In this document: positions 8,840 through 43,702 of the stretch, in pieces
Layout: the number at the start of each line of letters is the position of its first letter
Numbering within the stretch: position 1 is the stretch's first letter
DNA from: Actinomycetota bacterium
GTDB lineage: Bacteria; Actinomycetota; Acidimicrobiia; Acidimicrobiales; Iamiaceae
Direction: 5' to 3'
Length of the DNA stretch: 64,000 nt
Assembly (NCBI GenBank): GCA_016185275.1
Contig: JACPNX010000023.1
Coordinates: 1-64,000, forward strand
Translations under genes and position numbers: made by a program
The notes under the pieces: model-generated
Database searches by the model: none
What the model was told of the DNA's origin: nothing
What the model saw: the letters and a program-made list of their open reading frames with translations, nothing else

Positions 8840-9277
8840 CTATGCCCGCGTCGGGCGGTCGAACGCGGTGGCCAGGCGGGCCAGGGTCAGAGCGGCGAGC
8901 AGGAGCCCGAAGTCGCGCAGGGCGATGTCGTAGAAGTCGGCCTGTAGCAGCAGGTTGGTGATGATCCCGGCCAGCCAGGCGGCGACGAGGAAGCCGCCGA
9001 ACTTCGGTCGCACCGCGACGACGATGCCGGCGACGATCTCTACGACCCCGATGGCGAGCAGAGCCTGGTGGGCGTTGCCGGGGACGAGGTCGTTGATCTC
9101 GGGTGCGAGGTAGATGCGCCAGTCGACGAGCCAGTCGAGGAACTTGTCGAGCCCGAACAGGATCGGGGCGACCGTAAACCCGATGCGCAGCAGCGTGAAG
9201 GCCTGGAAGGCGGGGTTGTCGAGCCGGTGGGCGGTGACGCCGGGGACGACGGCTCGGTCGGTGGTGACGGTGGACAT
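8840..9277 (-). CDS. DoxX-like four-helix membrane protein
   Basis: The 145-residue protein has four hydrophobic segments in the arrangement of the DoxX/DUF417 group (LLRIGFTVAPILFGLDKF, ALLAIGVVEIVAGIVVAV, GGFLVAAWLAGIITNLLL, FGLLLAALTLARLA). DoxX relatives associate with redox enzymes of the membrane. It is the first gene of the minus-strand operon running to 3167. ATG 9277 is preceded by AGGAGG, and a promoter is visible at 9307-9335. Confidence 0.7.
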   Translation of the reverse strand: MSTVTTDRAVVPGVTAHRLDNPAFQAFTLLRIGFTVAPILFGLDKFLDWLVDWRIYLAPEINDLVPGNAHQALLAIGVVEIVAGIVVAVRPKFGGFLVAAWLAGIITNLLLQADFYDIALRDFGLLLAALTLARLATAFDRPTRA

Positions 9278-9361: not shown

Positions 9362-10072
9362 ATGGAACCTGCGGAGGACCTCGAGCGGCGCATCAGCGGC
9401 ATCGCCGCTCTGGACCAGCCGGTACGACGTGACCTGTATCGGCTGCTGTCTGAGCGCGACGGGTGGGTCACCCGCGACGAGGCGTCCGAAGCGCTGAGCA
9501 TCCCGCGGTCGGTCGCGGCCTTCCACCTCGACAAGCTCGTGGAGGCCGGTGTCGTCGAGATCACCTTCGAACGAATGACGGGCCGCACCGGTCCCGGGGC
9601 GGGACGGCCGGCCAAGCTCTACCGGCGAGGCACACGCGAGGTGTCGGCGTCGGTCCCCGAGCGCCGCTACGACCTCGCGGGGTCGCTGCTGGCGACTGCG
9701 ATCGCCGAGGCGGAACGGACCGGCGCGCCGATCGCTGACTGCCTGAGCGCCAGCGCCCGCGCCGCGGGACGGGTCATCGGCAAGGAGGCGGCCGACGCGA
9801 CGGGTGAGCTCAAGACGCGGGAGGAGCGGCGGCGCGCTGTCCTCGACCTGTTGGCCCGCCACGGCTACGAGCCGACGCTGGGCAAGCGTGGCGAGATCGC
9901 GCTCGTCAACTGCCCCTTCCACCGCCTCGCCGAGGAACACCGCAGCCTCGTATGCGGCATGAACCTCGACTTCCTCGCAGGACTCCTCGAAGGGATGGGC
10001 CCGGCCGATCGCCTCAACGCCAGGCTGGCACCCGAGCCGGGCTACTGCTGTGTGCGCATCAAGGCGGCGTGA
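9362..10072 (+). CDS. SufR-like iron-sulfur transcriptional regulator 1
   Basis: This 236-residue protein has an N-terminal winged helix (LDQPVRRDLYRLLSE, VTRDEASEALSIPRSVAAFHLDKLVEAGVVE, a basic wing TGPGAGRPAKLYRR) and a C-terminal effector domain. C184, C198 and C229/C230 (NCPFH, VCGMN, PGYCCVRI) have the spacing expected of SufR-type Fe-S ligands. Such regulators repress or activate Fe-S and stress genes according to cluster state. It diverges from the 9277 operon, which is its likeliest target; the five TTCTAG sites further right are another. A paralogue lies at 36990. Confidence 0.82.
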   Translation: MEPAEDLERRISGIAALDQPVRRDLYRLLSERDGWVTRDEASEALSIPRSVAAFHLDKLVEAGVVEITFERMTGRTGPGAGRPAKLYRRGTREVSASVPERRYDLAGSLLATAIAEAERTGAPIADCLSASARAAGRVIGKEAADATGELKTREERRRAVLDLLARHGYEPTLGKRGEIALVNCPFHRLAEEHRSLVCGMNLDFLAGLLEGMGPADRLNARLAPEPGYCCVRIKAA

Positions 10073-11366: not shown

Positions 11367-11912
11367 TCAGAGCAGTCCGAGCTGGAGTCGTGCCGCCTCC
11401 GACATGCGGTGGATGGTCCACGGCGGGTCCCAGACGAGGTTGACCTCGACGTCGTCGACGCCGGGCACGGCGAAGACGGCGCGGGCGGCGTCGGCGCGCA
11501 GGACGTCGCCCATCCCGCAACCCGGCGCGGTCATGGACATGTCGATCTCGATGCGGCGGGTGTCGAGCGGGCCGGGGAGCTCCTCGCAGCGGTAGACGAG
11601 CCCGAGCTCCACAATGCTGACGGGGATCTCGGGGTCGTAGACCTGGCCAAGCGCGTCGAGGACGCGGCTCATGTCGAACGGGCGGTCGTCGTCGACCGCC
11701 TCGTCCTCGCCGTCGGGCACCACGAAGCCGACGGCGTCGCCGTCGGCGGCGTCGAGTCGCAGGAGCGTTCCGAGCTCGGTGCGCACGGTGATGCTGGCGC
11801 CGAGCTGCTGGACGATCTCGACCTCGCCGCCTTCGGACAGCAGGACGAGCTCCCCGGCGGGGACGGTGGTTGCCATGCAGTCACGCAGGAGGGCGATCGG
11901 TGACCAGGCCAT
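11367..11912 (-). CDS. sufT: Fe-S assembly factor SufT (MIP18/DUF59)
   Basis: The 181-residue protein has an N-terminal SufT-specific extension (VPAGELVLLSEGGEVEIVQQ) and a C-terminal MIP18 domain (VYDPEIPVSIVELGLVY, MTAPGCGMGDVL, VNLVWDPPWT). SufT acts in maturation of iron-sulfur proteins under high demand. The conserved Cys is in APGCG. It starts 3 bases after the sufD stop and is the last gene of the suf operon. A shorter MIP18 paralogue lies at 24754. Confidence 0.9.
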   Translation of the reverse strand: MAWSPIALLRDCMATTVPAGELVLLSEGGEVEIVQQLGASITVRTELGTLLRLDAADGDAVGFVVPDGEDEAVDDDRPFDMSRVLDALGQVYDPEIPVSIVELGLVYRCEELPGPLDTRRIEIDMSMTAPGCGMGDVLRADAARAVFAVPGVDDVEVNLVWDPPWTIHRMSEAARLQLGLL

Positions 11913-11915
11913 CGG

Positions 11916-13180
11916 TCAACCACCCCTTCCGGCGGCGAAGGCGGCGGCGACCCGGTCGCGCAAGGTCGCCGGGGTGATCGCGTCGATGATCTCGGCGGCG
12001 AACCCGGCGACGAGCATGGCTCGGCCCTGCTCGAGCGGGATGCCTCGGCTGCGCAGGTAGAAGAGGGCGTCGTCGTCGAGGCGTCCCACGGTGGCGCCGT
12101 GGGTGCAACGGACGTCGTCGGCGAGGATCTCGAGCCAGGGTCGGGTGTCGGCCTGGGCGGTCGGGGCGAGGACGAGGTTGCGGTTCGACTGGTGGGCGTC
12201 GGTGCCGGTCGTACCGTGTCGGACCAGGACGTGGCCGCTGAAGGACCCGCGGCCGTGGTCGTCGACGATCCCGGTGAAGCGCTGGGTGCTCGCGCAGTGC
12301 GAGGCGCGGTGGTCGACGGTGACGACGTTGTCGTGGTGTTGGTGGCCGAGGGGCAGGTAGAGCCCGTCGATGTCGGCGCAGGCGTCGGTGCCGTCGAAGC
12401 CGATGGCGAGGGCGCTCCGGGCGATGTGTCCGCCGGTCATGATCGACGTCGCTCGCAGCGTCGAGCGGGCGCCCTGGTCGATGGCGGTGCGTCCGACGTG
12501 GATCGCGGCCGCGGCTTCGTCCTGGACGCGGTGGTGGGTCACGGTCGAGCCGGCGCCGGCGACGATGCGGGTGGACGCGTTCGTGACCGACGGGCCCGGC
12601 AGCCCGACGTAGGACTCGATCAGGTGGACGCGGCTTCCGGGCCCGGCGAGCACGACGGTGCGGGGATGGTTGGCCGTCGTGTCCTCGCCGGGCGCGGCGA
12701 TGTGGACGACGTGGACGGGCTGGTCGAGCTGCGCGCCCGGCTCGACGAGAACCGCGGCGACATCGCGGCCGGCGGCCCAGTTGAGGGCTTGGAAGCCGTC
12801 GGCGGGCTGGTCCTCGGCGGCGCGAGGCGACGGGGGTCGGGCTCGCATGCCGTCACGGTTGCCGAGCCACAGACCGTCCACCGCGCCTCCGGCGTCGGAG
12901 GCTCGCGGCTCGAAGACGCCGTTGACGAACACGAGGCGGGGACCGCCGTGGTCGCCGGCGAGGGCGTCGACGACGGACCGGCTGACCTGGCTGGTCGAGG
13001 CTGGGGCTGGTGCCGCGGCCTCGAGGGCGCCGACGATGTCGTCGACGGGGGTGTAGCGCCATGCCTCGTCGCGGGTGGTGGGCAGGCCGTGGGCGGCGAG
13101 CCAGTCCCGTCCTCGCTCCGCCCGCGGGCTCGGCGGTGACGGCGGGACCAGCCGATCGAGCAGGCCCGCCGGTGTGGCGG

Positions 13181-13184
<4 letters not shown>
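11916..13184 (-). CDS. sufD: Fe-S cluster scaffold subunit SufD
   Basis: The 422-residue protein has the SufD N-terminal segment with DEAWRYTPVDDI and the beta-helix core ending in CTHGATVGRLDDDALFYLRS, where SufD carries its conserved His/Cys region. SufBC2D is the scaffold on which new clusters are built. The start overlaps sufC by 4 bp. Confidence 0.93.
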
Positions 13185-15357
<2,173 letters not shown>

Positions 15358-15386
15358 GTGCTCTCCCTGGTGGACCGGCTCGCCAT

Positions 15387-15410
15387 TAGTTCTAGCATTG
15401 ACTAGAACTA
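15387..15410. promoter_or_regulatory. TTCTAG-N6-CTAGAA operator, site 1 (sufB / globin)
   Basis: The half-sites TAGTTCTAG (15387-15395) and CTAGAACTA (15402-15410) form a perfect 9-bp inverted repeat with a 6-base spacer. It lies between the divergent sufB and truncated haemoglobin genes. For the globin, TATAGT at 15409-15414 is a fitting -10, so a bound protein would cover the promoter. Confidence 0.8.
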
Positions 15411-15885: not shown

Positions 15886-18600
15886 TCACACCTGTCGTGG
15901 ATCAGCGGCGTCGGCGTCGATGCCGTAGAGAGCGACGGCATCGGCGACCGTCTCGGCCTTGAGGTCGCCCCGCTGGGCGAGTCCATGCAGCGCGGCCACC
16001 ACGATGTGGGGGGCGTCGACTTCGAAGTGACGCCGAAGCTCGGCGCGGGTGTCGGACAGGCCGAAGCCGTCTGTTCCGAGCACCTCGAAGGGCTGCGGCA
16101 TCCAGCGCGCGATCTGGTCGGGTACCGCCTTGACGAAGTCGGTGACCGCGACAACCGGACCGTCCACCCCCGCGAAGACCGTCTCGAGGTACGAGCGTCG
16201 CGGCGATTCGGTCGGGTGCAGCCGGTTCCACCGTTCGACGTCGAGGGCGTCGTTGCGGAGCTGCTGGAAGCTCGTGGCGCTCCAGACGTCGGCGCCGACG
16301 TCGTGGTCGTCGGCCAGCATGCGCTGCGCTTCGAGCGCGGCGAGCATGGCGGAGCCGCTGGCGACGATCTGGGCGGCGTGGGTCGTCCCCGCCGGTGCGG
16401 TTCGGAAGCGGTACAGCCCGCGGATGATGCCGTCTTCGACGCCGTCGGGCATCGGCGGCATCGGGTAGGCCTCGTTGTAGACGGTGAGGTAGTAGACGAG
16501 GTCCTCGGGGTCGTCGCCGTACATGCGCTGCATGCCGTCGCGGACGATGGCTGCGAGCTCGTAGGCGAAGGCCGGGTCGTAGGCGCGGCAGTGCGGGACG
16601 ACCGACGCCCAGGCCAGGCTGTGGCCGTCGCAGTGCTGCAGCCCCTCTCCCTGCAGGGTCGTGCGCCCGGCAGTGGCGGCGAGCATGAACCCTCTGCCGC
16701 GCATGTCACCCATCGCCCACAGCAGGTCACCGGCACGGTGCAGGCCGAACATCGAGTAGAAGACGAAGAACGGGATCATCGGCTGGCCCCACGTCGCGTA
16801 CGCGGTCGACGCCGCGATCAGCGACGCCATCGAACCCGCCTCGGTGATCCCCTCCTCCAGCACCTGGCCGTCAGTCGCCTCGTGGTAGCTGAGGAGCAGG
16901 TCGGCGTCGACCGGCTCGTAGCGCTGACCGGTCGGTGCGTAGATGCCGAACTGGCGGAACAGGGCGTCGATGCCGAAGGTGCGGGCCTCGTCGGGGATGA
17001 TGGGCACCACGCAGCGCCCGACCTCGGGGTCCCGCATCAGGTTGCGGAGCAGGCGGGTGAACGCCGAGGTGGTCGACACCGCCACCTTCTCGCCCGAGCC
17101 GGTGAGCAGCTCGCTGTACGGATCCGTGCGCGGCGTCACGGGTCGTACGTGCACCAGCCGCCGTGGGAGCGCGCCGCCCAGCCGGCGTCGGCAGGCCATG
17201 AGGTACTCGTACTCGTCGGAGTCGAAGCCGGGATGGACGTAGGGCGGCAGGTCGCTGGCGAGCGCCGCGTCCGAGATCGGCAGCTCGAGCCGGTCGCGGA
17301 AGGTCCTGAGCTCGGCCTCGCTCATCTTCTTCATCTGGTGGGTGGCGTTGCGGGCCTCGAAGTCCCGGCCCAGCGCCCAGCCCTTGACGGTCTTGGCCAG
17401 GATCACCGTCGGGGCGCCGCGGTGGTCGAGCGCGGCGCGGTAGGCGGCGTGCACCTTGCGAGGGTCGTGGCCGCCGCGACGCAGCCGGCGCAGGTCGTCA
17501 TCGCTGAGATGGGCGACGAGCTCGCGCAGCGCCGGCTCGGGGCCGAAGAAGTGGTCGCGGATGTAGGAGCCAGACTCGACCCGGAGCTTCTGGTACTCGC
17601 CGTCGACGGTCGCGTTCATTCGCGCGACGAGGTCGCCGCCGACGTCGCGGGCGAGGAGGTCGTCCCACTCCCGGCCCCAGACGACCTTGACGACGTTCCA
17701 GCCGGCGCCACGGAAGAGGCCCTCGAGCTCCTGGATGACCTTGCCGTTGCCGCGCACCGGCCCGTCGAGACGCTGGAGGTTGCAGTTGACGACGAAGACG
17801 AGGTTGTCGAGCTTCTCCCGGCCGGCCAGCGCGATCGCCGCCAGGCTCTCGGGTTCGTCCATCTCGCCGTCCCCGGCGAAGCACCACACGGTGGCGTCGT
17901 TGGTGTCGACGATGCCGCGGTCGTGGAGGTAGCGGTTGAAGCGGGCCTGGTAGGCGGCGTTGATGAGCCCGAGGCCCATCGATACCGTCGGGAACTCCCA
18001 GAAGTCGCTGCGCCGGGGATGGGGGTAGCTGGGCAGTCCGCCGGCGACCTCCCGGCGGAACCCGTCGAGGTCCGTCTCGTGGAGCCGACCCTCGAGGAAG
18101 GCGCGGGCGTAGATGCCGGGGGATGCGTGCCCTTGGATGAACACCTGATCGCCGGGACCGTCGTCCTTGCCGCGGAAGAAGTGGTTGAAACCGACCTCGT
18201 AGAGCGTGGCGGCCGAGGCGTAGGTGGCGAGGTGGCCGCCGAGACCGTCGCTGCGGCGGTTGGCCCGGGCGACCATCACCGCGGCGTTCCAGCGGATGTA
18301 GTGGCGGAGGCGTCGTTCCACCGCCTCGTCGCCCGGATAGGGGGGCTCGTCGGCGGCCGGGATCGTGTTGAGGTAGTCGGTGACGCCCGGGCCGGGCACG
18401 TCGAGGCCCAGCGACCGCGCCCGGCCCAGCACGTGCAACAGCACACGCTGGGCACGGTCGGCACCGCCCACCTCGACGAGCGCGTCCACCGAGTCGGCCC
18501 ACTCCTCCACCTCGGAGCCGTCGGGTTCGGGGAGCTGACCGAGGTACCGGTACGGGTCGGGAGGGGTTCGGACGGAACGGGAACGCGGAGGACTCGCCAT
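15886..18600 (-). CDS. aceE: Pyruvate dehydrogenase E1 component, homodimeric type
   Basis: The 904-residue single-chain E1 decarboxylates pyruvate with thiamine diphosphate and acetylates lipoyl groups of E2. The ThDP motif begins CFAGDGEMDEPESLAAI and closes at VFVVNCNLQRLDG; other AceE marks are GHASPGIYARAFLEGRL and YLTVYNEAYPMPP. I prefer ATG 18600, with GAGGTGAG 6 bases upstream, over GTG 18606, which would leave no spacing. It has its own operator (18616-18639). No E2 or E3 gene is adjacent, so it must use partners encoded elsewhere. Confidence 0.95.
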   Translation of the reverse strand: MASPPRSRSVRTPPDPYRYLGQLPEPDGSEVEEWADSVDALVEVGGADRAQRVLLHVLGRARSLGLDVPGPGVTDYLNTIPAADEPPYPGDEAVERRLRHYIRWNAAVMVARANRRSDGLGGHLATYASAATLYEVGFNHFFRGKDDGPGDQVFIQGHASPGIYARAFLEGRLHETDLDGFRREVAGGLPSYPHPRRSDFWEFPTVSMGLGLINAAYQARFNRYLHDRGIVDTNDATVWCFAGDGEMDEPESLAAIALAGREKLDNLVFVVNCNLQRLDGPVRGNGKVIQELEGLFRGAGWNVVKVVWGREWDDLLARDVGGDLVARMNATVDGEYQKLRVESGSYIRDHFFGPEPALRELVAHLSDDDLRRLRRGGHDPRKVHAAYRAALDHRGAPTVILAKTVKGWALGRDFEARNATHQMKKMSEAELRTFRDRLELPISDAALASDLPPYVHPGFDSDEYEYLMACRRRLGGALPRRLVHVRPVTPRTDPYSELLTGSGEKVAVSTTSAFTRLLRNLMRDPEVGRCVVPIIPDEARTFGIDALFRQFGIYAPTGQRYEPVDADLLLSYHEATDGQVLEEGITEAGSMASLIAASTAYATWGQPMIPFFVFYSMFGLHRAGDLLWAMGDMRGRGFMLAATAGRTTLQGEGLQHCDGHSLAWASVVPHCRAYDPAFAYELAAIVRDGMQRMYGDDPEDLVYYLTVYNEAYPMPPMPDGVEDGIIRGLYRFRTAPAGTTHAAQIVASGSAMLAALEAQRMLADDHDVGADVWSATSFQQLRNDALDVERWNRLHPTESPRRSYLETVFAGVDGPVVAVTDFVKAVPDQIARWMPQPFEVLGTDGFGLSDTRAELRRHFEVDAPHIVVAALHGLAQRGDLKAETVADAVALYGIDADAADPRQV

Positions 18601-18615
18601 GACCACTCACCTCGG

Positions 18616-18639
18616 TTTCTCTAGTCGATACTAGAGGAA
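18616..18639. promoter_or_regulatory. TTCTAG-type operator, site 2 (aceE)
   Basis: TTTCTCTAG (18616-18624) and CTAGAGGAA (18631-18639) pair at 8 of 9 positions with a 6-base spacer, upstream of aceE and downstream of the NuoF-like stop. On the minus strand TAGTAT (18633-18628) inside the site could be the -10, about 30 bases before ATG 18600. Confidence 0.75.
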
Positions 18640-18662: not shown

Positions 18663-20048
18663 TCAGTCCGTTTCGTAGGTCCAGTCGGGGCGCTTGCGCC
18701 AGAACGCGTCGTCGTAGGTGGCGGTGCCGTCGGCCAGGTCGAGCAGCTTGGGCATGGGGCGCCGCGTCGGCCGGGGGCAGCGGTGCTGCTCGATGTGCTC
18801 GGCGAACTCGTCGGGGAAGGCGCGCAGCACGCTGCTGACGACGCGCTGTTCCTCGACGGCGAGGTAGCAGCGGTTGCCGTCGGTGACCCGTTCGAGCCAG
18901 TGGGCGATGATGCCGAGGTCGCGGTCGTCGCCGGCGCCGGTCTCGATGCGCTCGAGGCGCTCGGTGATCTCGCCCGAGCCCATCTTGCAGGGCGGGCACT
19001 GGCCGCAGGACTCGACGTACAGGAAGCGAGAGAACCGGTAGGCGGCGTCGACCATGCAGGCGGTGTCGTCGTGCACGATGAACCCGGCCGCACCCATGCC
19101 GCTGCCGATGGCGGCGAAGCCTTCGTAGCTGACCGGGGTGTCGAGCTGGGCGGCGGTGACGACCGGGTTGGCGACGCCGGAGAACACGGCCTTGACGGTG
19201 CGGCCCGGGGCGACGCCGCTGCCGACGGCGTCGATCACCGCGCCGAGGGGGGTGCCGAGCTCGACCTCGCCGACGTCGGGGGCCACGACGTCGCCGACGA
19301 CGGTGGCCACGACGGTGCCGGGCGAGTCGGCGGTTCCGGTCGAGCGGAACCAGTCGGCGCCGCGGGCGAGGATGTGCGGCACGTTGGCCAACGTCTCGAC
19401 GTTGTTCACGAGGGTGGGGTTCGGTTCGTTGCTGCGCCGGTGCGTCCCGTGGGGACCGGCTTCCCATCCCTCCTGCGGTGAGGCGGCGAACAGGCCGTGC
19501 TCGTACGGTGGGAACCAGCGCGGCAGCGGCGGCTTGCCCTCGATGACCTCGAGCATCGCCTTCTCCTCGCCGAAGAGGTACTCGTCGGGGCCGGCGACGA
19601 TGTTGACGGTGCAGTCGGTGCAGACGCCGGCCGCCTGGAGCTCCTGCACGGCGCGAGTCACCGCCGCGATCTCGCGTTCGAAGCTGGCCTTCAGGCAGAT
19701 GAACGCCTCCTCGGCACCGATGGCGAAGGCGGCGACGATCAGGCCTTCGACGACCTGGTAAGGGTTGGCGCGCAGCAGCGCCCGGTCCTTGAACGTGCCG
19801 GGCTCGCCCTCGGCGCCGTTGCACACGAGATAGCGGCGAGTGTCCGTCTGGTCGGCGATGCCGGCCCACTTCCGACCGGTCGGGAAGCCGCCGCCGCCCC
19901 GGCCCCGGAGCCCGGCGGCAGCGATGGTGTCGATGGTGGCTCTCGGTCCGAGGCGCTGCGCGGTGGCCACGCCGACACCGCCCACGTCGGTGGCGAGATA
20001 CTCGTCGAGCGAGGTGATGGGTGTCGTCGGCAGCAGGAAGGTGGTCAT
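18663..20048 (-). CDS. NuoF-like NADH-binding flavoprotein
   Basis: The 461-residue protein has the FMN/NADH-binding region GLRGRGGGGFPTGRKWAG and VCNGAEGEPGTFKDR, an SLBB domain, and the N3-type 4Fe-4S ligands ESCGQCPPCK near residue 345 plus a distal Cys in NRCYLAVEEQ. In complex I and NAD-linked hydrogenases or formate dehydrogenases this subunit takes electrons from NADH. No NuoE- or NuoG-like partner is adjacent. It overlaps the upstream membrane protein gene by 4 bp, so it belongs to the DUF2249/hemerythrin operon. It may feed NADH electrons to the neighbouring membrane or hemerythrin proteins; that is inference. Confidence 0.88.
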   Translation of the reverse strand: MTTFLLPTTPITSLDEYLATDVGGVGVATAQRLGPRATIDTIAAAGLRGRGGGGFPTGRKWAGIADQTDTRRYLVCNGAEGEPGTFKDRALLRANPYQVVEGLIVAAFAIGAEEAFICLKASFEREIAAVTRAVQELQAAGVCTDCTVNIVAGPDEYLFGEEKAMLEVIEGKPPLPRWFPPYEHGLFAASPQEGWEAGPHGTHRRSNEPNPTLVNNVETLANVPHILARGADWFRSTGTADSPGTVVATVVGDVVAPDVGEVELGTPLGAVIDAVGSGVAPGRTVKAVFSGVANPVVTAAQLDTPVSYEGFAAIGSGMGAAGFIVHDDTACMVDAAYRFSRFLYVESCGQCPPCKMGSGEITERLERIETGAGDDRDLGIIAHWLERVTDGNRCYLAVEEQRVVSSVLRAFPDEFAEHIEQHRCPRPTRRPMPKLLDLADGTATYDDAFWRKRPDWTYETD

Positions 20049-21325
20049 GTCGGCTCCTCGGTCGGGCGAGCGGCGCGGGCGGTGCCCACGCGCGCGGCGC
20101 GCCATGCACTGTCGAGCACCCACGCCGCGATCGCCACCGCGGTGAAGATCGGGGGCCGTCCCGTCGCCGCGCCGAGCCCGGCGACGTTGGCCGCCGCGAG
20201 CCCGGGCCACGACCGAGTCGTCGCGACGCCCTCGGCGAGACGCTCGTGGCCGCCGCCGCGCAGCATGGGCAGCAGGTAGGCGAGCGATCCCCACAGGATC
20301 TGGGCGTAGCCGGCCACGACGAGCACGACCAGCCAGCGGTCGCCGAACACGAGCCGGTCGGCGGCAGCGTCGACTGCGGTCGCCGCGACCGCGGTCGCCC
20401 ACCACAGCCCGCCGGCCCACAGGGCGAGGAGGCGGGGCCCTGCCCACTGCAGCTGGCGCCGGGTCGGGCGGGGCAGCGACCCGAGCACGGCCAGCACACC
20501 GAGCGCGTAGCCGCCGAGCCCGATGCCTGCGAGGGCGGCGGCGTCGGCCGACAGGGCGAGCCCGGCCAGCAGCAGCGTCACCGTCTGCCAGGACAGCGAC
20601 AGGACCAGCCGGCGCGCGCTGGCGTGCGGGGCCATCCGGGTGCGGCCGACGGTGGACGCGAAGAACGGCAGCGTGCCGCCCACGACGAGCCCGACCAGGC
20701 CCAGGAGGTTGATCGTCACGTGCGCCGAACGCATCGAGATCGACGGGGAGCCGATCGCCATCCACGCGCCGAGCACCACCCCCGTGGTCCCGAAGGCGAG
20801 CGCGGCCAGGTAGGCGGCCACGGCGGGGTCGAAGCGCCGTTCCACCGCGCGGCGAACCGTGACCAGCAACAACGCGCCGAGGAGGACGAGACCCGCGAGG
20901 TAGGCGGTTGCGGCGACGCCGATCACGCCGTCGCCGAGCTCGGCATGGCGGCCGACGGCGATGCCTGCAGCACCGCCGGCGACGAGCCAGCGCTGCGCCG
21001 CCGCCCACCGGTCGGCCGGGGCCGGCGCGGCCGACCAGGTCACGGTCAGCATGAGCGACACGCCGCTGATGGCGAGCATCACCCCGCCCGCCAGGAAGAG
21101 GTGCAGCGGCAGCCACCGGGCCGAGCCCGCCGCGCCCGCCAGTGCGGCGGTGGCGATGAAGACGAGCGCCAGGCGCAGCGTCGTGCGCGCCTGGGCGTGC
21201 GACAGCCGGACCCGGTCGGCGGCACCCCGCCCGCCGCCGGTCGCCGTCGCCCGCCAACGGCTCGTGGGTCGCTCCGTCACCTGTGCACCAGTGTCGCCCC
21301 GTCGCCGGCTCGGCGCGGGCGTCAC
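20045..21325 (-). CDS. Polytopic membrane protein, NnrS/heme-copper-oxidase-like
   Basis: This protein of up to 426 residues has about eleven to twelve hydrophobic segments. Histidines lie in membrane segments: LPLHLFLAGGVMLAISG and SAHVTINLLGLVGLVVGGTL, followed by PFFASTVGRTR. This pattern recalls NnrS and subunit-I-like proteins that may bind haem, but I could not assign a Pfam family with certainty. GTG 21325 overlaps the hemerythrin stop by 4 bp; GTG 21280 is an alternative start. It is probably an inner-membrane partner of the hemerythrin and NuoF-like proteins in the same operon. Confidence 0.7.
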   Translation of the reverse strand: MTPAPSRRRGDTGAQVTERPTSRWRATATGGGRGAADRVRLSHAQARTTLRLALVFIATAALAGAAGSARWLPLHLFLAGGVMLAISGVSLMLTVTWSAAPAPADRWAAAQRWLVAGGAAGIAVGRHAELGDGVIGVAATAYLAGLVLLGALLLVTVRRAVERRFDPAVAAYLAALAFGTTGVVLGAWMAIGSPSISMRSAHVTINLLGLVGLVVGGTLPFFASTVGRTRMAPHASARRLVLSLSWQTVTLLLAGLALSADAAALAGIGLGGYALGVLAVLGSLPRPTRRQLQWAGPRLLALWAGGLWWATAVAATAVDAAADRLVFGDRWLVVLVVAGYAQILWGSLAYLLPMLRGGGHERLAEGVATTRSWPGLAAANVAGLGAATGRPPIFTAVAIAAWVLDSAWRAARVGTARAARPTEEPT

Positions 21326-21771
21326 GTCACCGCCGCGGCCGCCGTGGCGGCGTCGACGGCGCGGTGGGCGTCGCTCGTCGCTCCCCACTCCTCGTCGTCG
21401 AAGCCGAGCATCGCCGCGGGGAACAGCTCCATCTCCTCGTCCTCGATGTGCGCGGCGAGGGCGTAGAAGTCCCGTCGATCGAAGCCACCATCGGTGAGGG
21501 AGCGACGCAGGTCGCGGTGGTCGGCTTCGAGGTCGCGCACCTCGCCGGCCGAGACGGCGCCGGTCGCGACGAGCGCCGGGTACAGGCCGGTCTCCTCCTT
21601 GGCCACGTGCCGGTCGAGGAGGGCGAGCAGGTCGCGTCGCACGTCGCGGTCGGGCCGGTCCTCGGACCGTGGTGCCTCGGCTAGCGCCCACGCGAGGTCG
21701 AGGATCGTCTCGTGGTCGGCGGTCAGCTCGGCGATCGGCGGGAACGCTCGGCACCCGCAGTGGTCACACAT
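21322..21771 (-). CDS. Hemerythrin-like HHE protein 1
   Basis: The 149-residue four-helix protein has the di-iron pattern of hemerythrin HHE domains: LTADHETILDLAW, LDRHVAKEETGLYPAL, LEADHRDLRRSL and AHIEDEEMELFPAAM. An extra N-terminal CDHCGC cluster could bind metal. Hemerythrins bind O2 or NO at a di-iron site. It overlaps both neighbours (8 bp and 4 bp) in the DUF2249 operon. Confidence 0.85.
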   Translation of the reverse strand: MCDHCGCRAFPPIAELTADHETILDLAWALAEAPRSEDRPDRDVRRDLLALLDRHVAKEETGLYPALVATGAVSAGEVRDLEADHRDLRRSLTDGGFDRRDFYALAAHIEDEEMELFPAAMLGFDDEEWGATSDAHRAVDAATAAAAVT

Positions 21772-22081
21772 CAGGCGTCCGATCCGGTGTGGCGCCGCGG
21801 TGGGTGCAGTGCAGGTCGGCGACGTGGGGATCGAGGGCGACCATGACGTGCTCGGTGGAGGTCGTGTCGTCGGCGTGGAGGCTGGTCCGGACGACAGCAA
21901 GGAGCCGGTCGATCGCCACGTCGTGGTGCTCGACGCGCATGCACTGCCCGGCGATCGACGCGACCACGGAGACGACACCGGGTTCACGGCGCAGCACGTC
22001 GAGCGTGTCGTTGAAGCACCACGGGCAGTTCGCACCCGCGAGGGAGATCTCGGTCGTGACCGTCTTGCCGTGGGCGGTCAC
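21764..22081 (-). CDS. HMA-like small metal-binding protein
   Basis: This 105-residue protein starts with a heavy-metal-associated-like fold: SLAGANCPWCFNDTLDVL then REPGVVSVVASI, where CPWC replaces the usual CxxC. The C-terminal part contains LHCTHRG, another possible ligand pair. GTG 22081 overlaps the ACP-like stop by 4 bp. It could carry a metal or mediate disulfide exchange for the operon. Confidence 0.65.
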   Translation of the reverse strand: MTAHGKTVTTEISLAGANCPWCFNDTLDVLRREPGVVSVVASIAGQCMRVEHHDVAIDRLLAVVRTSLHADDTTSTEHVMVALDPHVADLHCTHRGATPDRTPDV

Positions 22082-22350
22082 GACGAGAGCTCGCGGGTGA
22101 ACAGATCGGCGAGCTCGCCGAGCGTGGTCGGCCGCGTTCCGTCGAGCTCGAGGTCACCCACGCTGCGTTCGCCGTACTCCTCGACGACCGCGTCCCACAG
22201 GTGTAGGATCGAGAGGTCGTCGTCGAGTTCGAGCGCAGCGAGTGGCGCGTCCGCCGCTCGAGGGGCATCGAGGCCGACGACACAGGTGAGGAGGTCGAGC
22301 ACGGCGCCGACGTCGACTGCCTCGCTTCGTTGGTGGGTTTCGGCAGGCAT
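22078..22350 (-). CDS. Acyl-carrier-protein-like protein lacking the pantetheine serine
   Basis: The 90-residue acidic protein aligns by eye with acyl carrier proteins: LELDDDLSILHLWDAVVEEY corresponds to the DSL helix-II region, and TTLGELADLF to helix IV. The Ser that receives phosphopantetheine appears to be Asp (DDL instead of DSL). If the alignment holds it cannot carry acyl groups and may be a structural partner, as the ACP subunit is in complex I. It starts 14 bp after the DUF2249 stop. Confidence 0.55.
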   Translation of the reverse strand: MPAETHQRSEAVDVGAVLDLLTCVVGLDAPRAADAPLAALELDDDLSILHLWDAVVEEYGERSVGDLELDGTRPTTLGELADLFTRELSS

Positions 22351-22364
22351 GGTTCGGTTTCCGG

Positions 22365-22802
22365 TCAGTGCCGCGCGAAGGTGACGCGCCAGTCGCCGCT
22401 GTCGAGCTGGTCGGCGACGTGGGTGAAGCCCTGCTCGCCGAGCACTCCCTCGAGGGGCACGGGCTCGAACGGGGCGTAGACGACGAGGACCTCGCCGTCG
22501 CTGACCTGGCTCGCTGCGTCCATGATCTCGGCGAAGGGCTCGCCGCCGGCGGCCAGTGTCGGGCGGGCGTCGACCACCCGGGCTCGGCTGGTGACGTCGA
22601 CCGCCCACTCCTCGGGGCCCTGCTCCACGTACTCCCAGCGGAACTGGTGGGGGCGGGTCGCGTCGAGCTGGTAGCGCAACGGCAACGGATCGTGGTCGTT
22701 CACCAGGCGGAGCGTCTCGCCGGTGGCGAGCTGGTCGATCCGCTCGAAGATCGTCTCGTGGCGGACCTTGGGGGGCATCGGCCGCACGTCCAGCGTCTGC
22801 AT
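22365..22802 (-). CDS. Double DUF2249 protein
   Basis: Two DUF2249 domains are visible. The first has LDVRPMPPKVRHETIFERID and GETLRLVNDHDPLPLRYQL, closing FRWEYVEQGPEEWAV. The second runs from VVDARP to GDWRVTFARH. DUF2249 proteins accompany hemerythrins and NO-responsive genes in many bacteria; their reaction is unknown. This is the first gene of the operon that runs to 18663, and it diverges from the NnrS-like gene across operator site 3. Confidence 0.85.
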   Translation of the reverse strand: MQTLDVRPMPPKVRHETIFERIDQLATGETLRLVNDHDPLPLRYQLDATRPHQFRWEYVEQGPEEWAVDVTSRARVVDARPTLAAGGEPFAEIMDAASQVSDGEVLVVYAPFEPVPLEGVLGEQGFTHVADQLDSGDWRVTFARH

Positions 22803-22843
22803 CTGTGACCTCCTGCACCTGGAGCGCCGTCCGTCGTCGGTGC

Positions 22844-22871
22844 TATTCTTCTAGTCGAGCCTAGAAGAATA
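22844..22871. promoter_or_regulatory. TTCTAG-type operator, site 3 (DUF2249 / NnrS-like)
   Basis: TATTCTTCTAG (22844-22854) and its exact reverse complement (22861-22871) form a perfect 11-bp inverted repeat around a 6-base spacer, the best of the five sites. TATTCT at each end is a possible -10 for the divergent transcripts, so one protein could close both promoters. Confidence 0.82.
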
Positions 22872-22886
22872 GCGGGGAGACGTCCA

Positions 22887-24266
22887 GTGGCGGTCCCGAG
22901 CGAGCGAACCAAGTCGATGCCGGTGAGCGCCGCGCCGTTCATGCCCGGCGGGGCGGGAACGGTCCCGCCGGCCTCGGTGCCGCTCGGGTTCCTCGCCGCC
23001 GCCGGTGTCGGCCTGTGGGCGTTCGGGCTGGCCGTGTGGTTCGCGGCCGATCGGCTCGTCGAGTCGCCGACGCACTCGGGGGCGGTGTCGGCCGTGCATG
23101 TCGGGATGCTGGCGTTCCTGACCACTGCGGTGCTCGGCGCCGTCCACCAGTTCGCGCCGGTCGTCGGCCGTCGGCCGCTGCGCTCGGTGCTCGCCGCCCG
23201 GCTGACCCTGCTGGGCATGGTCGCCACCGCGTGGCTGCTCCCGTCGGGGTTCGCCCACGGGCCCGAGGCGCTGGTCGCCGCCGGCGGGGTGATCGGCTCG
23301 TGCACCGTGTCACTGGCGGCGTGGAACCTGTCGGCCCCGCTCGCCGCCCGCGGCGGCGGCGTCCCGCTCGCCGGGCTGCGACTCTCGGTCGGGTTCCTCG
23401 TGCTCACCGTCGCGTTCGGTGTCGTCTACGCCTTCGACCGCCAGACCGGCTGGTTCCCGCTCCTCCCCCACCGGGTCCTCGCCCACGCCAACCTGGGCCT
23501 GCTCGGCTGGCTGGGCCTCACCTACGTGGCGGTGGCCGAGAAGCTGTGGCCCATGTTCCTGCTCGCCCACCGGCCCCGGGCACGGGCGGGTGCGTGGGCG
23601 GTGGGTCTGCTCGCGGCGGGGACGCCGGTTCTCGCCGCCGGCCTGCTCTTCGCCGTCCCCGCGCTGGCCTGGGCTGGCGGGGTGAGCGCTGCCGCCGGGC
23701 TCGGGTGCCATCTCGCCTCCCTTGCCGGCGCGGTCCGTCATCGCCGGCGTCCGCTCGAGCTGCTCCACGGGTTCCTGTTCGCCTCGGCCGGGTTTCTCGT
23801 CGTCGGCATCGCTCTGGCGGCGGCCGCCGGCCTCGCCGACGTCGATCCCGGCGACCGGTCCCGCCTGGTCGCCGCCGAGGTCGCCGCCCTGGTGGCCTGG
23901 CTCGGCCTCGCCGTGGTGGGTCACGCCCACAAGATCGTCCCCTTCGTCGGCTACACCGCCCTGCGCGCCCGCGGGGTCACCACCGGTCCGGCCGGCCGCC
24001 CCCTGCTGTTCGGCGACCTGTTCCACCACGGTGTCGCCCGTGCCACGCTCGCCACCGCCACCGTCGGGTTCGCCGCCACCCTCACAGGCATCCTCGCCGC
24101 ATCCCCCGCGGTGCTCGCCGGCGGCGGCGCGCTCGTCTCGGTGACCGGGGCGCTCGCCACCGTCAACCTCGCCGCCGGGCCCCGCCGAGCGGCACGACCC
24201 CATCCCAGCGCCACACCCGCGGTTCCCGCACCGACCGACCTCGTCACCTCCGGGAGGACCTCATGA
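22887..24266 (+). CDS. NnrS-like polytopic membrane protein
   Basis: The 459-residue protein has about twelve membrane segments with histidines in or next to them: SAVHVGMLAFLTTAVLGAVH, VLAHANLGLLGWLGLTYVAV and VVGHAHKIVPFVGY. The layout resembles NnrS and heme-copper oxidase subunit I relatives associated with NO response. GTG 22887 is preceded by GGGGAGA. It overlaps the next hemerythrin gene by 4 bp. Haem or metal binding is inferred from the histidines. Confidence 0.72.
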   Translation: MAVPSERTKSMPVSAAPFMPGGAGTVPPASVPLGFLAAAGVGLWAFGLAVWFAADRLVESPTHSGAVSAVHVGMLAFLTTAVLGAVHQFAPVVGRRPLRSVLAARLTLLGMVATAWLLPSGFAHGPEALVAAGGVIGSCTVSLAAWNLSAPLAARGGGVPLAGLRLSVGFLVLTVAFGVVYAFDRQTGWFPLLPHRVLAHANLGLLGWLGLTYVAVAEKLWPMFLLAHRPRARAGAWAVGLLAAGTPVLAAGLLFAVPALAWAGGVSAAAGLGCHLASLAGAVRHRRRPLELLHGFLFASAGFLVVGIALAAAAGLADVDPGDRSRLVAAEVAALVAWLGLAVVGHAHKIVPFVGYTALRARGVTTGPAGRPLLFGDLFHHGVARATLATATVGFAATLTGILAASPAVLAGGGALVSVTGALATVNLAAGPRRAARPHPSATPAVPAPTDLVTSGRTS

Positions 24267-24757
24267 CCGAGCACCGACCCACCGAACCGCTGCGGTCCGA
24301 GCACCGCGACCTGCTGCCCCACCTGCTCGCCCTCGACACCGCCGCCAACGAAACCGCAGGGTGGGACCGCAACACGGCGGTCGCCACGCTGGGCGACCTC
24401 GTCGGGTTCCTGCGCGGCCACCTCGTGCCCCACGCCACCGCCGAGGAAGCCGTCCTCTACCCGGCGGTCGAGGAGGCCATGGCCGCGCCGGGGGCGACCG
24501 CGACGATGCGCGCCGACCACGTCGAGATCGTCGCCCGCATCGACCGGCTCGCGGAGGCCGCCGCCGCGGTCGAGCAGCGCTGGCCCGACGCCGAGCTCGC
24601 CCGCGACGTCGCCCACCAGCTCGTCGGGCTCTCCGCGATCCTCCAGCTCCACTTCCGCAAGGAGGAAGAGGTGCTGCTGCCGGTGCTCGACGCCAACCTC
24701 GACACCGACGCCGCCGCCGCGCTGTTCACCCGCATGGGCGAGGTCGCCCACCAGTGA
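24263..24757 (+). CDS. Hemerythrin-like HHE protein 2
   Basis: The 164-residue protein repeats the HHE pattern: LRSEHRDLLPHLLAL, GHLVPHATAEEAVLYPAVEE, MRADHVEIVARIDRL and LQLHFRKEEEVLLPVLD. It probably holds a di-iron centre that binds O2 or NO. It is coupled by 4-bp overlaps to the membrane protein before it and the MIP18 protein after it, and shares operator site 3. Confidence 0.88.
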   Translation: MTEHRPTEPLRSEHRDLLPHLLALDTAANETAGWDRNTAVATLGDLVGFLRGHLVPHATAEEAVLYPAVEEAMAAPGATATMRADHVEIVARIDRLAEAAAAVEQRWPDAELARDVAHQLVGLSAILQLHFRKEEEVLLPVLDANLDTDAAAALFTRMGEVAHQ

Positions 24758-25095
24758 TCACCACGCCCACCGTCGACTGGCAGGCCGAGTCGCGCCGCCA
24801 GCGGGTCCTCGTCGCCCTCGGCAACGTCTGGGACCCCGAGCTCGGGCTCGACGTCGTCTCCCTCGGGCTCGTCTACGACGTGCGCGTCGACGGCGACACG
24901 ATCGAGATCGACATGACCCTCACCACCCCCGGCTGCCCGGTCTCCGAACAGCTCCCAGCGGAGGCCGAAGCCGCCGTACGCGCGGCGGTCCCCGACGCGG
25001 ACCTGCACGTGCAGGTCGTGTGGGACCCGCCGTGGACTCCCGAGCGGCTCTCGCCCGTCGCGCTCGACCAGCTCGGCTTCGCCCGCCGGCGGTGA
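24754..25095 (+). CDS. MIP18/DUF59 family Fe-S assembly factor (PaaD-like)
   Basis: The 113-residue protein is a stand-alone MIP18 domain: VWDPELGLDVVSLGLVYDV, TLTTPGCPVSEQL with the conserved Cys, and VVWDPPWTPERL. It resembles the C-terminal half of the SufT at 11367. Its coupling to a hemerythrin suggests metal-centre maturation for this operon; that is inference. Confidence 0.88.
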   Translation: MITTPTVDWQAESRRQRVLVALGNVWDPELGLDVVSLGLVYDVRVDGDTIEIDMTLTTPGCPVSEQLPAEAEAAVRAAVPDADLHVQVVWDPPWTPERLSPVALDQLGFARRR

Positions 25096-25466
25096 GCAGC
25101 ACGTCCGGACACCTCGATCTGCTGGCCATCGCCCGCTGCGTCCGCGACGCGGTCGAGCGCGACGACACCGAGGGGCTCCACGCCCACCTGACCCGGCTAC
25201 GAACGGCGGTCATGGACCACGTTCACGCCGAACGCGCCCAGCTCGATGCGCTCCCTGACCCTGCCGCCGCGGTCGCCCTCGACGGTCAGCGGCGGCTGCT
25301 CCGACTCCTCACCGACGTGCTGTTCGCCCCCGCCGATGGCGATGGACGCGACGACTGCAACTGCGTCGTTCGCGCCGCGGAGATCGAGCTCGCGGTGCGC
25401 CGTCAAGCCAAGCTCGAGGCTGCGCTCTTCCGCCGCCACCCGCACGCCCGACGCGCAGGCACCTGA
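25092..25466 (+). CDS. Small uncharacterised protein, last gene of the NnrS-like operon
   Basis: This 124-residue, mainly helical protein has His/Asp/Glu-rich stretches (HLTRLRTAVMDHVHAERAQL) that recall half a hemerythrin domain, and a DDCNC motif. I could not place it in a family. GTG 25092 overlaps the MIP18 stop by 4 bp, which supports its reality. It converges with the DinB-like gene. Confidence 0.6.
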   Translation: MSSTSGHLDLLAIARCVRDAVERDDTEGLHAHLTRLRTAVMDHVHAERAQLDALPDPAAAVALDGQRRLLRLLTDVLFAPADGDGRDDCNCVVRAAEIELAVRRQAKLEAALFRRHPHARRAGT

Positions 25467-33873: not shown

Positions 33874-33897
33874 TATTTCGAGTATCCACTAGAACTA
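33874..33897. promoter_or_regulatory. TTCTAG-type operator, site 4 (CopD-like / cupredoxin)
   Basis: TATTTCGAG (33874-33882) and CTAGAACTA (33889-33897) flank a 6-base spacer. The right half equals that of site 1 and the left half matches the consensus at 7 of 9. TAGTAT at 33871-33876 is a plausible -10 for the cupredoxin operon. Confidence 0.72.
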
Positions 33898-33914
33898 ATC
33901 GTTGGAGGTCCCCG

Positions 33915-34295
33915 GTGCGTCGTCCCCTCGTGCTCCTGCCCGTTGCCGCCGTCGTGGTCATCGCCCTCGGGAGCTGCGGCGGTGACGACGACGGCGGCGG
34001 CGCCGCACCCGAGGACCGCGGCAACGGTGGCGTCGAGGTCGTCGCCCGCGACATCGAGCTCGGCGAGAGCGAGTACGACACGACCGCCGGCGACGTCCAG
34101 CTCCACTACGTCAACGAGGGCAGCATCGCCCACACCCTGCTCATCGAGGACGTCGACGGCTTCAAGCTCGAGGTGACCGGCAACGGCGACGAGGACCAGG
34201 GCAGCGTCGAGCTCGAAGCGGGGACCTACACCCTCTACTGCGACGTGCCCGGCCACCGCGAGGCGGGCATGGAAGCCACCCTCCAGGTCAGCTGA
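33915..34295 (+). CDS. Cupredoxin lipoprotein (plastocyanin-like)
   Basis: The 126-residue protein has a signal peptide with lipobox ([10 protein letters not shown]) and an acidic linker. It then has a cupredoxin fold with the type-1 copper ligands His in [11 protein letters not shown] and Cys, His and Met in [12 protein letters not shown]. It is probably a membrane-anchored electron carrier outside the cell. GTG 33915 follows GGAGGT. Its stop overlaps the second haemoglobin by 1 base. Confidence 0.9.
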
Positions 34296-34744
34296 TGCCG
34301 GCCCATGCCACGTCGTCGACGGTCGACATCACCAGCCGGGGCGACGTGCACGACCTCGTCGTCGGCTTCTACCGGGAGATCGTCTTCGACGACGTGCTGG
34401 CACCGGTGTTCGCCGAGGTCGCCGAGACCGACTGGACCGTCCACATCCCGAGGCTCATCGACTACTGGTGCCGCATCCTGCTCGGCGAGCCCGGCTACCA
34501 CGGCGCCATCGTCGCCGCCCACCGCCACGTGCACGACCTCGACGCCTTCCGCGTCGAGCACTTCGACCGCTGGTACGAGCTGTGGGCGCGCAGCATCGAC
34601 GCCACCTGGCAGGGCCCCGTCGCCGAGAACGCCAAGCGCCATGCCGCCCGCGTCGGCGCCTCGTTGACCCGCCGGCTGCTCGACACCGACTGGCAACCCG
34701 TCGCGCTCGCCCCGACCCCGACCACCGAGAGGACCCGACCGTGA
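34295..34744 (+). CDS. Group III truncated haemoglobin 2
   Basis: The 149-residue globin is related to the one at 15439: [55 protein letters not shown]. It lies between cupredoxin and SOD with 1- and 4-base overlaps and probably deals with O2 or NO. Confidence 0.85.
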
Positions 34745-35361: not shown

Positions 35362-35892
35362 TCACACCGCGTCGTAGACGACGCCGCGGGCCACCCGTCG
35401 CGCGCTCGGCGTGACCGGATGGGCCGCGATCCGGCCGTCGTGGAAGACGTGCGCGACCTCGACCCCTGCGACGAGGACCAGATGGTCGGCGAGGAGCCGA
35501 CGGTGGCACCTCCACCACACCGACTCCGAGCACATCACCGCCGACGGCGACCCACCGGCGACGTGGAGCAGCTCGTCGACCGCAGCGGTGAACTCCGAGG
35601 ACGACATGTGGTCGGCGTAGGCACGGAACTGCAGGTTGCGCAAGGCGACGTTCGGCGACTCGGTGCGCACGCGTCGGCGACCACCCAGGGCCTCCATCCA
35701 CCGGTAGTCGAGCCCGGCAGCCGCCAGCCACGCCGCCATCGCGTCGCCCCCGAAGTGCGGATGCCGGCGACTACCCGGATAGCGCCGCACGTCGACCACG
35801 GTCCCGATGCCGGCGGCTATCAGCAACTCCACGAAGTCGTCCGCCGACGCCGTGCCGTGCCCGACCGTCCAGATCCGCGTTCCACTTGCCAT
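35362..35892 (-). CDS. DUF488 family protein (long form)
   Basis: The 176-residue protein has IWTVGHGTASADDFVELL, VVDVRRYPGSRRHPHF and MCSESVWWRCHRRLLADHL, the Cys/His region of the family. Function unknown. ATG 35892 or GTG 35895 is the start, a few bases from operator site 5, which it shares with the divergent peroxiredoxin unit. Its 3' end meets SOD. Confidence 0.88.
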   Translation of the reverse strand: MASGTRIWTVGHGTASADDFVELLIAAGIGTVVDVRRYPGSRRHPHFGGDAMAAWLAAAGLDYRWMEALGGRRRVRTESPNVALRNLQFRAYADHMSSSEFTAAVDELLHVAGGSPSAVMCSESVWWRCHRRLLADHLVLVAGVEVAHVFHDGRIAAHPVTPSARRVARGVVYDAV

Positions 35893-35899
35893 CACCGTT

Positions 35900-35923
35900 T
35901 ATTTCTACTATCTACTAGAGTAA
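35900..35923. promoter_or_regulatory. TTCTAG-type operator, site 5 (DUF488 / peroxiredoxin unit)
   Basis: TATTTCTAC (35900-35908) and CTAGAGTAA (35915-35923) flank a 6-base spacer. TACTAT at 35906-35911 on the plus strand and TACTCT at 35922-35917 on the minus strand are plausible -10 elements of the two divergent genes. Confidence 0.7.
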
Positions 35924-35944: not shown

Positions 35945-36319
35945 ATGGCAGAGACCGCCCGCATCCACGAACCCGAACCTTCCGTCCTCGAACCGAAGCC
36001 GGCGCTGCAGCTGGTGCACGGCACGGCCGGCGCCGGGGCCTCTTCCGAGGCGGCGATGCCGAACGTCGGGCGCACCGCCATGATCGGGTACCTGGTCGGC
36101 TTCGTCGCCGCCACCGTCGTGATCACCGTCGCCGGAACCCTCGGCGGGCTCGGCTTCGGCGCCTCCCTCGGCCTCGGTGCCTTCGTCGGCATCTGGGGCG
36201 GCGGCGGCTTCGGCTTCATGATGGGCGGCACCGTGCCCCTTGCCCGTCACCTCGACGCCCAGTCGGCCCGTTCGACCCACCACGGACAAGGAGAGACCCA
36301 TGGCACTGCAGCTCGGTGA
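35945..36319 (+). CDS. Small glycine-rich membrane protein
   Basis: The 124-residue protein has a hydrophilic N terminus and two Gly-rich hydrophobic segments (MIGYLVGFVAATVVITVAG and GLGAFVGIWGGGGFGFMMGG). No family recognised. It overlaps the peroxiredoxin start by 20 bp and is the first gene behind operator site 5. Confidence 0.65.
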   Translation: MAETARIHEPEPSVLEPKPALQLVHGTAGAGASSEAAMPNVGRTAMIGYLVGFVAATVVITVAGTLGGLGFGASLGLGAFVGIWGGGGFGFMMGGTVPLARHLDAQSARSTHHGQGETHGTAAR

Positions 36320-36935
36320 CACCGCACCGGACTTCACCGCGGAGACGACCGAAGGACCCGTCAGCCTCCACGAGTACCTCGGCGACAGCTGGGGGATCCT
36401 GTTCTCCCACCCGGCCGACTTCACGCCGGTGTGCACCACCGAGCTCGGCGAGTTCGCCCGGCGCAAGAAGGAGTTCGACGACCGCAACACCAAGATCGTC
36501 GGCGTCAGCGTCGACTCGGTCGACTCCCACCGGGGCTGGTCCGACGACATCGCCGAGACCCAGGGGACCGGCCTCAACTTCCCGCTCGTCGGCGACGAGG
36601 ACCGCACCGTCGCCCAGCTCTACGGGATGATCCACCCGAAGGCGCTCGAGACGGCGACCGTCCGCACGGTCTTCGTGATCGGGCCCGACAAGAAGGTGAA
36701 GCTCACGCTCACCTATCCCGCGGCAATCGGCCGCAACGTCGACGAGATCGTGCGGGTCCTCGACGCCCTCCAGCTCTCGGCCACCCACGCCGTGTCGACA
36801 CCGGTGAACTGGAACGACGGCGACGACGTGATCATCTCGCCTGCAATCTCCGACGAGGAGGCCACCACGCGGTTCCCCAAGGGCTTCACCACCCTCAAGC
36901 CCTACCTCCGCCTCACGCCACAACCGAACCGATGA
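36300..36935 (+). CDS. 1-Cys peroxiredoxin (Prx6 type)
   Basis: The 211-residue enzyme reduces peroxides or peroxynitrite. The peroxidatic cysteine is C45 in SHPADFTPVCTTELGEF, and the long C-terminal region (VNWNDGDDVIISP, FPKGFTTLKPYLR) is typical of the Prx6 subgroup. It probably shares a transcript with the preceding membrane protein and perhaps the SufR-like gene 54 bp downstream. Confidence 0.93.
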   Translation: MALQLGDTAPDFTAETTEGPVSLHEYLGDSWGILFSHPADFTPVCTTELGEFARRKKEFDDRNTKIVGVSVDSVDSHRGWSDDIAETQGTGLNFPLVGDEDRTVAQLYGMIHPKALETATVRTVFVIGPDKKVKLTLTYPAAIGRNVDEIVRVLDALQLSATHAVSTPVNWNDGDDVIISPAISDEEATTRFPKGFTTLKPYLRLTPQPNR

Positions 36936-43669: not shown

Positions 43670-43702
43670 ACGCGAACAACCTCCACACGCGCTCGATCCG
43701 CG

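Follow-up and report, generated by a model that had tools for sequence, protein, structure and literature searches.

Regulons concerned with nitric oxide (NO), iron-sulfur (Fe-S) clusters and redox stress are known under the control of NsrR, NnrR, DNR, ArnR and SufR (PMC1274295, PMC12343034, PMC9045647). ArnR of Corynebacterium glutamicum is a proven [4Fe-4S] repressor with cysteines C179, C193 and C223, which releases DNA on nitrosylation; its regulon includes narKGHJI and hmp (PMC12343034). SufR of Mycobacterium tuberculosis, with cysteines C203, C216 and C244 spaced by 13 and 28 residues (PMC6034842), is a [4Fe-4S] repressor derepressed by NO and reactive oxygen species (PMC9045647). In the NsrR, NnrR and DNR regulons a hemerythrin repair protein (DnrN/YtfE), NnrS and globin are coregulated (PMC1274295). 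Here we describe a block of ten genes at positions 18663-25466 of the window, by which we mean the whole 64,000 nucleotide stretch that was analysed (positions 1 to 64,000 of JACPNX010000023.1, contig 15 of a 3.44 Mb Acidimicrobiia genome, GCA_016185275.1). The minus strand encodes a tandem DUF2249 protein, a small protein called 'ACP', an HMA-like protein, the hemerythrin Hr1, the membrane protein Mem1 and a NuoF-like flavoprotein, and the plus strand the membrane protein Mem2, the hemerythrin Hr2, a MIP18 protein and another small protein. We propose, with a probability of roughly 0.6, that this block is the central divergent operon pair of a local Fe-S-sensing NO/redox-stress regulon of the Acidimicrobiia.

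The proposed regulon shares with that of ArnR an Actinomycetota host and globin-type NO defence, and its candidate regulator, SufR2, has the identical three-cysteine spacing and conserved histidine near the cluster of this ArsR/MarR-type [4Fe-4S] repressor (PMC12343034). The targets differ, comprising here suf, the hemerythrins, DUF2249, two membrane proteins of haem-copper-oxidase (HCO) fold, aceE and the NuoF-like gene, and SufR2 is likened to ArnR through its cysteine/histidine pattern. With the SufR/suf systems of mycobacteria, Streptomyces and cyanobacteria the locus has in common a putative Fe-S ArsR-type repressor, control of suf, autoregulation and SufT (PMC6034842, PMC9045647), whereas the cysteine spacing of SufR2 (14 and 30 residues), the operator TCTAG-N6-CTAGA and a far broader target set set it apart from them. 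Hemerythrin and globin genes recall the NsrR, NnrR and DNR regulons; unlike these, it has another regulator family and operator, its membrane proteins are not Pfam NnrS, and SUF and the E1 component of pyruvate dehydrogenase are included. This combination, its operator and its HCO-fold partners appear to be undescribed in the literature surveyed, in which papers on DUF2249 were sparse.

Gene block and operator

All ten open reading frames of the original prediction, six on the minus and four on the plus strand, are present (Table 1), and the 4-8 bp overlaps reported there were found at every junction (4 or 8 bp) except that between the DUF2249 and 'ACP' genes, where there is a gap of 14 bp. 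Mem1 starts with GTG at 21325, overlapping the TGA stop of the upstream hemerythrin gene on the minus strand. The names 'NnrS-like' and 'ACP' were corrected, as described below.

Between the divergent starts, at approximately 22842-22873, lies the perfect operator that had been noted earlier, an inverted repeat of 13+13 bp with a 6 bp spacer (GCTATTCTTCTAG-TCGAGC-CTAGAAGAATAGC; general form GCTATTCTTCTAG-N6-CTAGAAGAATAGC), the core of which is TCTAG-N6-CTAGA. The 3.44 Mb genome contains three exact copies of the core and five sites matching the extended pattern with no more than two mismatches, all five inside the window and within 20.5 kb. Since the reversed pattern, used as a control, occurred just as often (3 and 5), the number of sites is by itself weak evidence; the case rests on their clustering, which has a probability of about 6e-9 under uniform placement, and on an independent position weight matrix (PWM) built solely from other genomes. 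Applied to the window, this matrix recovered exactly five sites, scoring 29-37 bits; the best of all other positions reached -7.6, and no shuffled window exceeded 4.

Conservation in relatives

Searching 84,980 species genomes with Mem2 revealed 149 relatives, from which 80 loci were taken; the nearest named relatives are metagenome-assembled genomes of Acidimicrobiia and Actinomycetota. Co-occurrence was counted in those 72 loci that were 6 kb or longer, and the counts are lower bounds because a fused DUF2249-hemerythrin protein contributed a single count and contig ends truncate many loci. MIP18 was found in 59 of these loci, a SufR2-like gene in 45, DUF2249 in 42 and an Hr2-type hemerythrin in 33, with Mem1 (9), the ACP-like family (9), sufB (4) and the NuoF-like gene (3) being rarer. 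The core common to the relatives is DUF2249, MIP18, the membrane protein, SufR2 and often hemerythrin. In the 1.14 Mb surrounding the Mem2 relatives we counted 46 exact operators, against a mean of 1.45 in 60 permutations of the arms, and these precede sufB, SufR2, DUF2249/Mem2, hemerythrin and globin genes. The core families therefore co-occur in dozens of genomes under one operator, and suf, globin, RIC-type repair and an ArnR/SufR-like regulator travel with them, in support of the link to NO that had been predicted, and of one to Fe-S stress. One locus (L201), in a genome of another class, unites NuoF-like, Hr1, Hr2, SufR-like regulator, DUF2249, Mem2 and MIP18 genes; it and some others recur across our two locus sets (L201 = L231, for example) and were not taken as independent.

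Regulators

The most likely regulator of the block is SufR2, judged from its sequence to be a putative Fe-S-cluster repressor of ArsR type. Its N-terminal winged helix-turn-helix domain matched ArsR structures by profile (to 6e-9), and C162, C176 and C206 are invariant, and H179 nearly so, in 22 sequences (SufR2, 20 relatives and the second regulator of the window), which have the ArsR-type domain in common. Against the cyanobacterial SufR equivalog TIGR02702 it scored 20.5 bits, below the cut-off of 178.8. The operator stands upstream of SufR2 relatives, and it is from the repeated placement of SufR2 beside it that we infer binding. The second putative Fe-S ArsR-type regulator, SufR1 (9362-10072), is divergent from a DoxX-like gene (8840-9277); this pair also occurs at L098, and at L183, where FolE and a ferredoxin-reductase-like gene accompany it.

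In the regulon that we propose, a repressor with an intact cluster would sit on TCTAG-N6-CTAGA, and nitrosylation or loss of that cluster, through NO in the first place and oxidants in the second, would release it and turn the operons on. Induction would serve the rebuilding of clusters (SUF assembly, SufT/MIP18 maturation), di-iron repair by hemerythrin/RIC-type proteins (Hr1 with HMA-like; Hr2), and removal of NO or O2 by the group III globin with its cupredoxin and by the peroxiredoxin, while the Fe-S-free pyruvate dehydrogenase (aceE) might keep pyruvate oxidation running. The two HCO-fold membrane proteins would be induced as well, and the NuoF-like protein may pass NADH electrons to soluble redox partners, be they the globin, the hemerythrins or Fe-S assembly, and not to a membrane complex. 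This scheme builds on the genes and their operator, recurrence and placement, the core, the folds and the catalytic residues, from which we infer regulator binding, the signal, the chemistry and every electron-transfer step. None of DUF2249, HCO-fold proteins without the reductase metal site and stand-alone NuoF-like proteins has a settled function. One conserved operator linking them to SUF, RIC-type repair and globin offers a single testable physiological setting, and predicts, for an actinobacterial class that is mostly uncultured, which DNA site and which targets an ArnR-like sensor has.

Membrane proteins

Neither Mem1 nor Mem2 matched any Pfam model, NnrS (PF05940) included, and scanning their relatives gave no match to NnrS either. 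A genome search for PF05940 also gave no match, a weak result since there was none in control genomes either, and profiles of both proteins against PDB sequences gave nothing useful. Mem1 and Mem2 are themselves homologues (hhalign probability 96.6, E 5e-10). AlphaFold2 predicted 12 transmembrane helices (TM) for Mem1 (pLDDT 89.6, pTM 0.87) and for Mem2 (pLDDT 85, pTM 0.84), and the best matches of both models, far over the helical-bundle background, were CcoN of cbb3 oxidase and bacterial NO reductase. Mem1 aligned with CcoN over 370 residues (VIA Z 35.2, root-mean-square deviation 2.9) and Mem2 over 391 (VIA Z 34.9, deviation 3.1); the respective Z values against cNOR were 32.1 and 32.7. On these models both proteins have the fold of the HCO/NO-reductase superfamily, and the identification of the plus-strand membrane protein as Pfam NnrS was rejected.

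Only two histidines of Mem1 are kept, H75 (TM2) and H202 (TM6), both invariant, while Mem2 keeps H71, H87, H228, H275 and H346 in 87 sequences and has no histidine pair in TM7. Judged by sequence and helix position, the three-histidine non-haem Fe/Cu site (TM6, TM7) of NO and O2 reductases is apparently absent from both proteins, which makes a role as single-haem sensor, store or transfer protein likelier; one haem is probably bound by each. In other Actinomycetota a 12-TM domain of Mem1 type, distantly related to Mem1, is N-terminal in proteins of 850-885 amino acids (L040, L045, L048, L049, L051). Cupredoxin and NirK-type multicopper domains are present in all four of those scanned (L040, L048, L049, L051), with a match to copper nitrite reductase (152 bits) that lies under the cut-off. 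These fusions tie the HCO-type fold to nitrogen oxides.

HCO-homology proteins, NnrS among them, were reportedly described by Pei et al. in 2014 as having a 12-TM HCO/NO-reductase fold, few histidines and a predicted single haem, and are said to be genomically linked to DUF2249 and nitrogen oxides. Mem1 and Mem2 resemble proteins of that description in fold and in their few histidines, and differ in that no Pfam model matched them.

Hemerythrins and small proteins

The N-terminal cysteine motif of Hr1 is kept in its relatives. At L034 a homologue of the HMA-like protein forms the N-terminus of a protein whose remainder (ScdA_N plus hemerythrin) passes the TIGR03652 RIC cut-off; the window hemerythrins score under the RIC/YtfE cut-off. 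Because of this fusion, the HMA-like protein and Hr1 together look like a split RIC-type repair protein. The homologues of 'ACP' (n=16) keep an MPAETH start. It has no Pfam or NCBIfam match and the family has no serine at the phosphopantetheine position, and the identity of 22078-22350 as an acyl carrier protein was therefore rejected. The small protein encoded at 25092-25466, which had no family match, is at best a hemerythrin-like fragment.

NuoF-like flavoprotein

Every flavin mononucleotide (FMN), NADH and 4Fe-4S residue that its own clade shares with the genome's true NuoF is retained in the NuoF-like protein, and the four N3-cluster cysteines are invariant in both. The closest solved relatives are HydB, HoxF and NuoF, which share these residues and, judging by sequence, the fold. 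In contrast to these it has no NuoE-type partner or larger complex, is mostly encoded by a solitary gene, and scored 307 bits against the NuoF equivalog, under the cut-off of 559. The true NuoF belongs to a separate nuo operon on contig 22. Close relatives within the class are likewise mostly single genes amid unrelated neighbours. NuoF-like genes lie beside suf or SufR2 in 5 of 40 genomes versus 0.46 expected, for a rough probability of 1e-4 which assumes uniform placement. A solitary paralogue of the same genome, 47% identical, is found on contig 48 (L102, 9430-10857) with unrelated neighbours.

Alternative explanations

The original prediction was of an NADH-driven reductase of NO or O2, bound to the membrane, in which the NuoF-like, ACP-like and HMA-like proteins join the membrane proteins. 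Translational coupling in a single operon, the NADH, FMN and 4Fe-4S residues kept in the NuoF-like protein, the HCO/NO-reductase fold of Mem1 and Mem2, and the L201 locus all favour such an enzyme. We nevertheless consider it very unlikely, given that most genomes which carry the NuoF-like gene have it on its own and that just 3 of 72 loci place it near the core; on this distribution we rejected a complex of NuoF with the membrane proteins. The three-histidine site is apparently missing from both membrane proteins, no phosphopantetheine serine is present in 'ACP', the HMA-like protein is to be grouped with RIC-type iron-sulfur repair, and the block has no quinone-site or docking partner (NuoE/NuoG/HoxU-like). 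A different role for the stand-alone NuoF-like protein, as NADH reductase of the di-iron hemerythrins or the group III globin, would give NADH-driven NO removal without a membrane complex in an undescribed Acidimicrobiia regulon with an operator of its own and an ArnR-like sensor; we offer this as a speculation that may well prove wrong. Perhaps, also, the same regulon answers a general demand for Fe-S clusters (iron limitation, O2, peroxide) and not NO; O2 or iron would then be handled by the hemerythrins, globin and membrane proteins. The membership of suf, peroxiredoxin and aceE would suit this, SufR of cyanobacteria and mycobacteria responds not to NO alone but also to iron and oxidants (PMC6034842, PMC9045647), and no nirK was found over the cut-off in the genome. 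This explanation deserves consideration but we think it improbable: SufR2 spaces its cysteines as the NO sensor ArnR does, HCO/NO-reductase-fold proteins, DUF2249 and RIC-type hemerythrins typify nitrogen-oxide regulons (PMC1274295, PMC11218638), and Mem1 relatives are fused to NirK-type domains. Those fusions to NirK-type oxidases would also fit an accessory or maturation cluster for nitrate/nitrite respiration, in which DUF2249 senses nitrogen oxides, MIP18 and SUF build respiratory enzymes and the membrane proteins deliver haem or copper; DUF2249 proteins are tied to nitrate respiration in Thermus (DrpA) and in Haloferax mediterranei, which has four (PMC6282519, PMC11218638). The lack of a nirK over the cut-off and a regulon of repair and detoxification genes, not respiratory enzymes, make this distinctly unlikely.

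Certain observations also weigh against our preferred reading, that of an Fe-S-sensing NO/redox-stress regulon. The absence of a nirK match over the cut-off leaves an internal source of NO without support, and the operator could be bound not by SufR2 but by the second Fe-S regulator (9362-10072). Solitary NuoF-like genes elsewhere lack the exact operator (best, 2-3 mismatches). Near-core placements of this gene are scattered on the tree, where they require 10 changes, as many as shuffled labels do, and do not form the single clade that had been considered. Being mostly solitary and so scattered, the NuoF-like gene is a recurrent guest and not a structural part of the block.

Other genes of the window

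The remaining members of the proposed regulon are included in Table 1. The peroxiredoxin/SufR2 operon, which also encodes a PAS protein, is divergent from DUF488.

Table 1. Coordinates of the block, its operators and associated genes in the window
Feature	Position	Strand	Evidence
NuoF-like NADH/FMN/4Fe-4S flavoprotein, 461 aa	18663-20048	-	Complex1_51K 9e-41, NADH_4Fe-4S 4e-19
Mem1, predicted 12-TM HCO-fold protein, two invariant His (H75, H202)	20045-21325	-	predicted structure, His conservation
Hr1, hemerythrin with MCDxCGCR N-terminus	21322-21771	-	Hemerythrin 3.7e-12
HMA-like CPWC domain protein	21764-22081	-	homologue is N-terminal domain of RIC repair protein in a relative
MPAETHQ-family small protein (called 'ACP')	22078-22350	-	16 homologues
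Tandem DUF2249 protein	22365-22802	-	PF10006 3e-46, two stretches
Mem2, predicted 12-TM HCO-fold protein, cluster core	22887-24266	+	predicted structure, His conserved in 87 sequences
Hr2, hemerythrin	24263-24757	+	Hemerythrin 9e-22
MIP18/SufT-like Fe-S assembly factor	24754-25095	+	PF01883 2.5e-22
Small hemerythrin-like helical protein	25092-25466	+	8 homologues; no family match
Operator, divergent pair DUF2249/Mem2	22842-22873		PWM 32.3 bits
Operator upstream of aceE	18616-18639		PWM 34.9 bits
Operator upstream of suf operon	15387-15410		PWM 36.6 bits
Operator upstream of cupredoxin and globin	33874-33897		PWM 29.1 bits
Operator between DUF488 and membrane/peroxiredoxin/SufR2/PAS genes	35900-35923		PWM 33.3 bits
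SufR2, ArsR-type regulator, C162/C176/C206, candidate repressor	36990-37691	+	HTH_20 8e-7
suf operon part: sufB, ABC ATPase (sufC position), sufD, SufT/MIP18	11367-15366	-	SufBD_core 3e-82 (sufB); gene order, sequences, relatives
aceE, pyruvate dehydrogenase E1	15886-18606	-	PDH_E1_M 1e-82
Cupredoxin, then group III truncated globin (34295-34744)	33894-34744	+	Copper-bind 3.5e-5; globin 2ig3 9e-8
Peroxiredoxin (AhpC/TSA), SufR2 operon	36300-36935	+	1.4e-35

The DUF488 gene (35362-35895) and a small membrane protein gene (35945-36319) have their operator in common with the peroxiredoxin/SufR2 operon, and both are also found beside SufR2 at L169. The aceE gene adjoins the Mem2/DUF2249/MIP18 cluster at L205 too (12077-14698), and lies about 7 kb from NuoF-like genes at L101 and L105. 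Further along the window there are three tyrosine-recombinase-like genes in a row whose ends overlap (51905-54734), a fourth integrase-like gene (61779-62990) and a very long relaxase-like open reading frame (43053-47789), which, by their sequences, suggest an integrative element.

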